A stretch of DNA of 64,000 bases from Jonesiaceae bacterium BS-20 (lineage in GTDB: Bacteria > Actinomycetota > Actinomycetes > Actinomycetales > Cellulomonadaceae): contig CP146203.1 of the NCBI GenBank assembly GCA_039995105.1, positions 496,001 through 560,000 of the forward strand, written 5' to 3'. A program made the translations under genes and the position numbers. The notes beneath the pieces were generated by a model that saw nothing but the letters and a program-made list of their open reading frames with translations, did not search any database and was not told where the DNA came from. Every line of letters starts with the position of its first letter. Positions within the stretch are counted from its first letter, which is position 1. Positions 12,439 through 13,517 of the stretch are shown piece after piece.

Positions 12439-12586
12439 TGAATCTAACGTCCCATGACTTTCGTCCGTGTTATTACTGGTAATTCGTGTGTGCTAGCCAC
12501 GATGGTCCAAATCTGAGGTGCCCAACTACCGCCAAAAAGGGGTTTGACGTATGCTGGCTGGGTGCCGAGAAATATTTTTGGCACAT

Positions 12587-12727
12587 GTGCTCCGGGGTCG
12601 GTGAAATTCCGAACCGGCGGTTATAGTCCGCGACCCTTACTGACGTGATTGCCTTGGCAAGAACACCGGTGAGGTTGAACTGGTGAAATTCCGGTACCGA
12701 CAGTCAAAGTCTGGATGGGAGAAGCAC
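12587..12727 (+). ncRNA. FMN riboswitch (RFN element)
   Basis: The conserved RFN blocks are all present: GGTGAAATTCCGAACCGGCGG, a second GGTGAAATTCCGGTACCGAC and CTGGATGGGAGAAG. Outer strands GTGCT (12587-12591) and AGCAC (12723-12727) can close the P1 helix. It precedes a RibM/PnuX riboflavin transporter gene, a known target of this riboswitch in actinobacteria. FMN binding should switch transporter synthesis off. A possible -10 box (TATGCT, 12549-12554) lies upstream. Confidence 0.93.
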
Positions 12728-12804
12728 AACTGGCTTTGCCGTATCTAGGCTGCCGTTTTGCCATATTTGGCGGAACCGTGGCCGCGGTATTTGCATGAGT
12801 CCGT

Positions 12805-12845
12805 CCTCCCCGAAAGTACATTACGACTCGGAAGGGGGATTTTTT
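12805..12845 (+). promoter_or_regulatory. Riboswitch expression platform: combined terminator and RBS sequestor
   Basis: CCTCCCCGA (12805-12813) can pair with TCGG (12828-12831) and GGGGG (12834-12838), leaving an AA bulge. Six T residues (12840-12845) follow, then directly the GTG start at 12846. The 3' arm is also the ribosome-binding site GGAAGGGGG of ribM. The same hairpin could therefore stop transcription or block translation. Confidence 0.6.
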
Positions 12846-13517
12846 GTGACCATTATTGAATGGCTATTTAACGCTCAGCTCCACATCGGTGATCAGTCGA
12901 TTATGTGGCGTGAGCTCATTGGAAACCTGTTTGGCCTAGCCTCCGCACTCGGTGGCATGCGCCGCAAGGTCTGGGCTTGGCCCATTGGTATCACTGGCAA
13001 CGCCCTACTCTTTACGGTATTCGTGGGTTCGATTTTTGGTACCGCTGACCACGTCAACCTGTTGGGGCAGGCCGGCCGCCAGATCATGTTCATCACGGTT
13101 TCCATCTACGGTTGGTACCGCTGGAAGACCCGTGCTGATGAGGGTAAACCCTTCATCCCGCAGTGGGCTACCGGTAAGCAAAGGACCATGTTGATCGTTG
13201 CAATGGTTGCCGGCACGCTCGCGTTGACCCCCATTTTCCGTGCCTTCGGTTCATATGAGCCGGTCTGGGCGGACGCATGGATCTTTATGGGTTCCCTGCT
13301 TGCCACCTACGGCATGGCCAAGGGCTGGGTTGAATTCTGGCTGATCTGGGTTGTCGTGGACATTGTTGGTGTGCCGCTATTGTTCTCCGCCGGATACTAC
13401 GCCACCGGACTTATGTACGTGTTCTACGGTGTATTCACCCTGGTCGGGTTCTTTGTGTGGTGGCGGGTGCAGCGAAAGGACCGCATCGCCCACCAGAAAG
13501 AACTCATCCCACAGTAG
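12846..13517 (+). CDS. ribM: Riboflavin transporter of the PnuC family (RibM/PnuX)
   Basis: A 223-residue polytopic protein with about seven membrane segments and a PnuC-family core (MRRKVWAWPIGITGN, FITVSIYGWYRW). PnuC proteins usually carry nicotinamide riboside, but the actinobacterial branch behind an FMN riboswitch (PnuX of Corynebacterium glutamicum, RibM of Streptomyces davawensis) imports riboflavin; the riboswitch here points to that function. The start is GTG 12846, 8 bases after GGAAGGGGG. An in-frame ATG at 12795 lies before the regulatory hairpin and has no binding site. The gene is monocistronic and convergent with the permease gene. Flavin uptake by facilitated diffusion is inferred from the family. 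Confidence 0.88.
   Translation: MTIIEWLFNAQLHIGDQSIMWRELIGNLFGLASALGGMRRKVWAWPIGITGNALLFTVFVGSIFGTADHVNLLGQAGRQIMFITVSIYGWYRWKTRADEGKPFIPQWATGKQRTMLIVAMVAGTLALTPIFRAFGSYEPVWADAWIFMGSLLATYGMAKGWVEFWLIWVVVDIVGVPLLFSAGYYATGLMYVFYGVFTLVGFFVWWRVQRKDRIAHQKELIPQ

Follow-up and report, generated by a model that had tools for sequence, protein, structure and literature searches.

The genomic window analysed here, a stretch of 64,000 nucleotides of contig CP146203.1 of Jonesiaceae bacterium BS-20, very probably carries a standard FMN OFF riboswitch of ribM, in which a hairpin formed in the FMN-bound state would hide the Shine-Dalgarno (SD) sequence and a tract of six U residues (U6) may add partial termination. 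The aptamer, the gene, the SD position and the U6 tract are established from the sequence and the hairpin from its predicted fold. The features are listed below in window coordinates; G000 is the genome under study, G012 a genome of another genus and G016 a genome with the same ribM leader sequence as Jonesia quinghaiensis.

12584..12730, + strand: FMN aptamer (RFN element), RF00050, 96.6 bits
12731..12802, + strand: linker with a long hairpin at about 12741-12790; 50% identical in G012
12803..12813, + strand: 5' arm (anti-SD) of the sequestor/terminator-like hairpin, predicted fold
12828..12840, + strand: 3' arm of the hairpin, predicted fold
12830..12838, + strand: SD sequence of ribM, GGAAGGGGG, 7 nt ahead of the GTG
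12840..12845, + strand: U6 tract separating the hairpin from the start codon, from the sequence; also in G012, absent in G016
12846..13517, + strand: ribM (pnuX), riboflavin transporter, PF04973, 162.6 bits

Aptamer, gene and start codon

The aptamer was matched over the full RF00050 model (positions 1-138) with an E-value of 4.5e-21, and its score exceeds the curated cut-off of 66.2 bits. It is the only RF00050 match at E 0.001 in this genome of 3.53 Mb, the single representative of its genus in the comparison set. The original prediction of an FMN riboswitch is supported by this match and by the PF04973 gene directly downstream, with FMN binding predicted from the sequence. The stretch ahead of the aptamer was found at one place in the uniqueness check, and a search of the plasmid collection returned just two records, matching with pieces of 48-50 bases inside the aptamer. 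An inverted repeat (GTGCC...GGCAC) is located at 12562-12584, directly 5' of the aptamer. A consensus scan of the leader region found no promoter or terminator; TATGCT at 12550-12555 is a possible -10 element.

The ribM product has 223 amino acids counted from the GTG and shares 81% identity with the G012 copy and 80% with that of Jonesia quinghaiensis. According to the cited part of PMC4418817, ribM is a known FMN-riboswitch gene. The mechanically called open reading frame starts at an in-frame ATG at 12795, inside the leader, and adds 17 codons running through the hairpin. This start was rejected: no purine-rich site lies ahead of it, and in G012 the corresponding frame hits a TAG two codons ahead of the ribM ATG. 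For most relatives, the alignment of RibM begins at the GTG at 12846 or only a few residues away. GTG 12846 is thus the better start, in agreement with the original prediction, and we judge ATG 12795 to be unused.

The sequestor hairpin and its relatives

In the sequence, GGAAGGGGG at 12830-12838 is followed by A at 12839, TTTTTT at 12840-12845 and GTG at 12846-12848. The predicted fold pairs 12803-12813 with 12828-12840 at -14.8 kcal/mol. Its loop of 14 nt is flanked by 12813 and 12828, the two A residues at 12832-12833 bulge out, and 12807 and 12836 form a U-G wobble. The SD sequence is situated within the 3' arm of this hairpin (12803-12840), whose stem ends at 12839/12840, 5-6 nt from the GTG. 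Both structural claims made earlier, namely that the SD sequence lies in the 3' arm and that a six-U tract abuts the GTG, are upheld by the sequence and the predicted fold.

The energy of the hairpin alone was not unusual compared with dinucleotide shuffles (z -0.62 for 12795-12848, z -1.15 for 12800-12845), and extra stability was discarded as evidence. Linker and hairpin together (12731-12848) are unusually stable against such shuffles (z -3.76), and the linker fold at 12740-12800 reaches -26.0 kcal/mol (z -2.93). The long linker hairpin is not preserved in sequence in G012. In the full-length predicted fold the SD sequence is 0.22 unpaired; in a 70-nt accessibility test of this leader it was 0.34 unpaired versus 0.32 in shuffles.

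The proposed mechanism would work as follows. At low FMN, upstream sequence, probably including the 3' end of the aptamer, would hold the 5' arm (12803-12813), so that the SD sequence is free and RibM can be made. Upon FMN binding the aptamer would close and the 5' arm, once released, would pair with 12828-12840; at high FMN the ribosome-binding site would thus be hidden in the hairpin and translation turned OFF. Should the U6 tract that follows the hairpin also bring about some intrinsic termination, as it may in this lineage, the leader would be a dual platform. We infer the FMN dependence, the translational control and any termination from this arrangement. The candidate anti-sequestor partner is GGATGGG at 12713-12719, in the 3' end of the aptamer, to which 12800-12806 is complementary; the modelled duplex reaches -10.7 kcal/mol, and -13.6 kcal/mol in G012. 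When the transcript is cut off at 12827, its predicted fold pairs the arm with the linker at 12784-12792 and with the 5' side of the aptamer at 12589-12597. When the 5' strand of P1 was barred in silico, the SD sequence was not freed (0.21 unpaired). Since the ON state does not emerge from equilibrium folding, we infer the release of the 5' arm as a step of the mechanism.

The family search covered 221 genomes of 25 genera. Loci were collected in three ways: through FMN matches in the family (30 given, with 40 more hand-picked among the listed places), through RibM in named genomes (the best 80 of 528) and through RibM within the family (30 loci). An aptamer was present in 19 of these best 80 of 528 RibM loci, one of them on the opposite strand; in Gryllotalpicola ginsengisoli (L131:1771-1896) the FMN aptamer lies ahead of ribM but on the opposite strand. 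In total, 52 distinct ribM leaders were defined by the aptamer 3' motif upstream of ribM, a pattern that misses leaders with a variant motif. Fifty of the 52 have a C-rich arm (CCTC/CTCC or CCC(C)GG/CCCCGA) ahead of the SD sequence, the exceptions being L113 and L080, and in all except L059 (51/52) the predicted fold pairs half or more of the G residues between -17 and -4 with upstream sequence; both counts come without a shuffle control, and many of the leaders are GC-rich. After L003 and L004 were dropped for want of a recognizable SD word, 50 of the 52 leaders could be compared for accessibility: the unpaired fraction of the SD sequence is one half or less in 44 of these 50, with a mean of 0.26 versus 0.38 when the upstream sequence was shuffled.

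The GTCCTCCCCGA arm of the 5' side is also found in G012 and G016, and in predicted folds the ribM relatives combine a C-rich arm with pairing over the SD sequence. Between this genome and G012, identity is 77% for the aptamer, 50% for the linker and 84% for the hairpin. RNAalifold gave no consensus on a MAFFT alignment of the 52 ribM leaders, and in a comparison of the three closest leaders, pairs that differed had changed on one side only, were gapped or, in two cells, were broken. Covariation, which had been proposed earlier as a check, was therefore not demonstrated in either set. Because formal covariation failed, the sequestor is rated as a plan which, by sequence and predicted fold, relatives share, not as a proven covarying helix. 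Among the ribM leaders examined, an arm that would face the SD sequence is common and the U-tract is not.

The U-tract and a possible terminator

Within its final 20 nt, the leader has a run of at least four T in two of the 52 ribM cases, those of this genome and of G012; the run was absent in G016 and the remainder (50/52). For the family as a whole, 99 loci gave 80 distinct FMN leaders after removal of 8 without the motif and 11 duplicates, and the same two genomes account for the only cases of a hairpin with T5 anywhere before the gene. The phylum sample comprised 45 distinct leaders from 50 loci (30 best scoring and 20 hand-picked among the listed places; 4 without the motif and 1 without an ORF were left out). 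In this sample, a hairpin with T5 was located far from the gene in 13 leaders, was lacking in 30 and was flagged near the start in two. The latter, L205 (480 nt after the aptamer) and L231 (about 355 nt), were not counted as dual cases because in our judgement their starts look misplaced. GGATTTTTT is present in both G000 and G012, although the T-run is split in the alignment and an additional AGTTT precedes the ATG of G012; there the stem ends 11 nt from the ATG and the U6 tract leaves a gap of 12 nt between SD sequence and start. Among the genomes seen, the U-tract thus appears lineage-specific, and its apparent conservation rests on one comparison between two carriers.

Within this genome, T6 occurs at a density of about 0.11 per strand-kb (464 kb), and in 142 genes examined it lies in the gap between SD sequence and start in two, ribM being one of them. 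The pattern GGRGGNTTTTTTN{0,6}RTG was found four times in the whole genome versus once for its reversed control. By these counts, the combination seen at ribM is unusual.

The U6 tract could serve simply as an A/U-rich spacer through which the start region stays open, with no termination involved, and we give this explanation close to an even chance. It is favoured by the absence of a hairpin with T5 in 78 of the 80 family FMN leaders and by the flagellin gene (PF00669; L184:19232-19248, G000:C1:619232) of this genome, which has GGAGGATTTTTTAAATG with a U6 spacer as at ribM, one of the four GGRGGNTTTTTTN{0,6}RTG occurrences, while no Rfam match was found in 601 bases around it and local pairing at its SD sequence is weak. 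The rarity of T6 spacers (2/142 genes) argues against it, as does the 12-nt gap in G012. A gap of that length lies outside the optimal SD-start spacing.

The layout seen at ribM, but lacking the FMN aptamer, was also observed ahead of a 482-aa transporter (MFS_1, PF07690) on the minus strand at L192:12163-12177 (G000:C1:1972163-1972177), where a 7-bp CCTCCGG/CCGGAGG hairpin over the SD sequence is followed by ATTTTTT and ATG. No Rfam match was found in 801 bases and no tRNA by ARAGORN; when 201 nt of this leader were compared with 220 family genomes, the only matches were to G000 itself and, over a piece of 25 nt, to G059.

Alternatively, hairpin and U6 could form an intrinsic terminator as well as an SD sequestor, so that FMN would end transcription and silence the transcripts that escape. 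We regard this as quite possible, at somewhat less than even expectation. A hairpin of -8 kcal/mol or lower with T4 was found within 120 nt of the stop in 35 of 265 long ORFs versus 16 of 265 mid-gene controls (464 kb), and U-tailed terminators therefore exist in this genome. The U-tail score of the ribM hairpin (4.54; G012 4.76) is second only to the best gene end (4.66, 464 kb) and lies near that of the ilvB-type leaders (4.48). Its stem, at -13.0 kcal/mol in that scan, is weak beside those at the gene ends, of which seven of the eight best-tailed have stems of -17.7 to -41.3 kcal/mol. On a d'Aubenton-type terminator score, the ribM leader reached -0.0 in G000, 7.9 in G012 and -73.2 in G016, compared with 13.8-17.0 for four ilvB-type leaders. 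The hairpin is bulged and has a 14-nt loop, and a simple terminator scan, in which loops of 3-8 nt were allowed, did not report it.

The ilvB-type leaders of G000, G012, G016 and G038 show that a hairpin followed by T6 occurs elsewhere in the lineage, which favours a terminator at ribM. The gene that follows in G000 and G012 has TPP_enzyme_M and _N domains (Pfam) of the acetolactate-synthase type, and we take it to be ilvB. Near position 1500 of L235, L259, L260 and L261, the leaders of four genomes have a common hairpin and then TTTTTTCATG, an arrangement that is likely a conserved attenuator. Terminators in ilvB leaders of other Actinobacteria are described in the cited part of PMC1262725.

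The ribM stem ends 5-6 nt from the GTG, inside the 10-nt rule given in the relevant part of PMC2258182, while that of G012, at 11 nt from its ATG, falls just beyond it; the lack of the U-tract in G016 and in 50 of the 52 ribM leaders also counts against termination. The hairpin (84%) and GGATTTTTT are kept in G012 while the linker has diverged to 50%, and a second, terminator role of the ribM hairpin is therefore plausible. Taken as an intrinsic terminator in such models, the hairpin is borderline but possible. Tentatively, and with some doubt, an inherited translational sequestor may have become a terminator-sequestor when the ancestor shared by this genus and the genus of G012 gained U6; if so, the riboswitch has been caught while passing from single to dual control.

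It is rather unlikely that FMN-dependent loss of ribM mRNA comes about through Rho and RNase acting on untranslated mRNA and not through the U-tract, although this has a precedent in C. glutamicum ribM (Takemoto et al. 2015, as cited in PMC11647493 and PMC10974012) and can coexist with a translational OFF-switch.

Comparison with known riboswitches

The FMN OFF riboswitch preferred here for ribM represents a further case of a known arrangement, because a dual class of riboswitches (PMC2258182) and SD-sequestering RFN elements (PMC1262725) are both described in the cited parts of these papers. The original prediction had considered a single structure acting at both transcription and translation to be a compact platform not typical of FMN riboswitches. 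Action at both levels may occur, in view of U6 and of the SD sequence inside the hairpin; the novelty of the platform does not stand, since one hairpin with two modes has been known since 2007. According to Barrick and Breaker (2007; PMC2258182), the dual class comprises riboswitches in which a terminator hairpin adjoining the gene, at most 10 nt from the start codon, carries the ribosome-binding site in its 3' side; the set of mechanisms used there is said to have been predicted earlier for TPP, AdoCbl, FMN and lysine riboswitches, and translation attenuation is given as the commonest mode outside the Firmicutes. In the ribM leader, too, a terminator-like hairpin has the ribosome-binding site in its 3' side, with a U-tract and 5-6 nt to the start. 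It differs in that its hairpin is borderline as a terminator and termination is only putative; the program used in that paper was Rnall. Actinobacterial RFN elements, as described in PMC1262725, sequester both SD sequence and start codon.

Transcript-level effects besides translation are cited for the FMN riboswitches of E. coli ribB and C. glutamicum ribM in parts of PMC11647493, PMC10974012 and PMC11487190. The ribB riboswitch (Pedrolli et al. 2015) is said there to act at both levels, as may be the case here, but controls another gene and is cited with Rho-dependent termination. The C. glutamicum riboswitch (Takemoto et al. 2015) likewise has an FMN aptamer before ribM in an actinobacterium, with cited effects on mRNA, but there Rho and RNase were invoked. 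The closest comparison is the ribM leader of Jonesia quinghaiensis (L071, identical in leader sequence to L031 from G016), which has the aptamer, the GTCCTCCCCGA arm and the SD-covering hairpin but no U-tract. Apart from their use as a set for such comparisons, these results are routine annotation. The relatives share aptamer, gene and SD-covering hairpin, two of them with the U-tract and Jonesia quinghaiensis without it, and form a natural set for tests of dual control which could show what a translational riboswitch gains from a U-tract.
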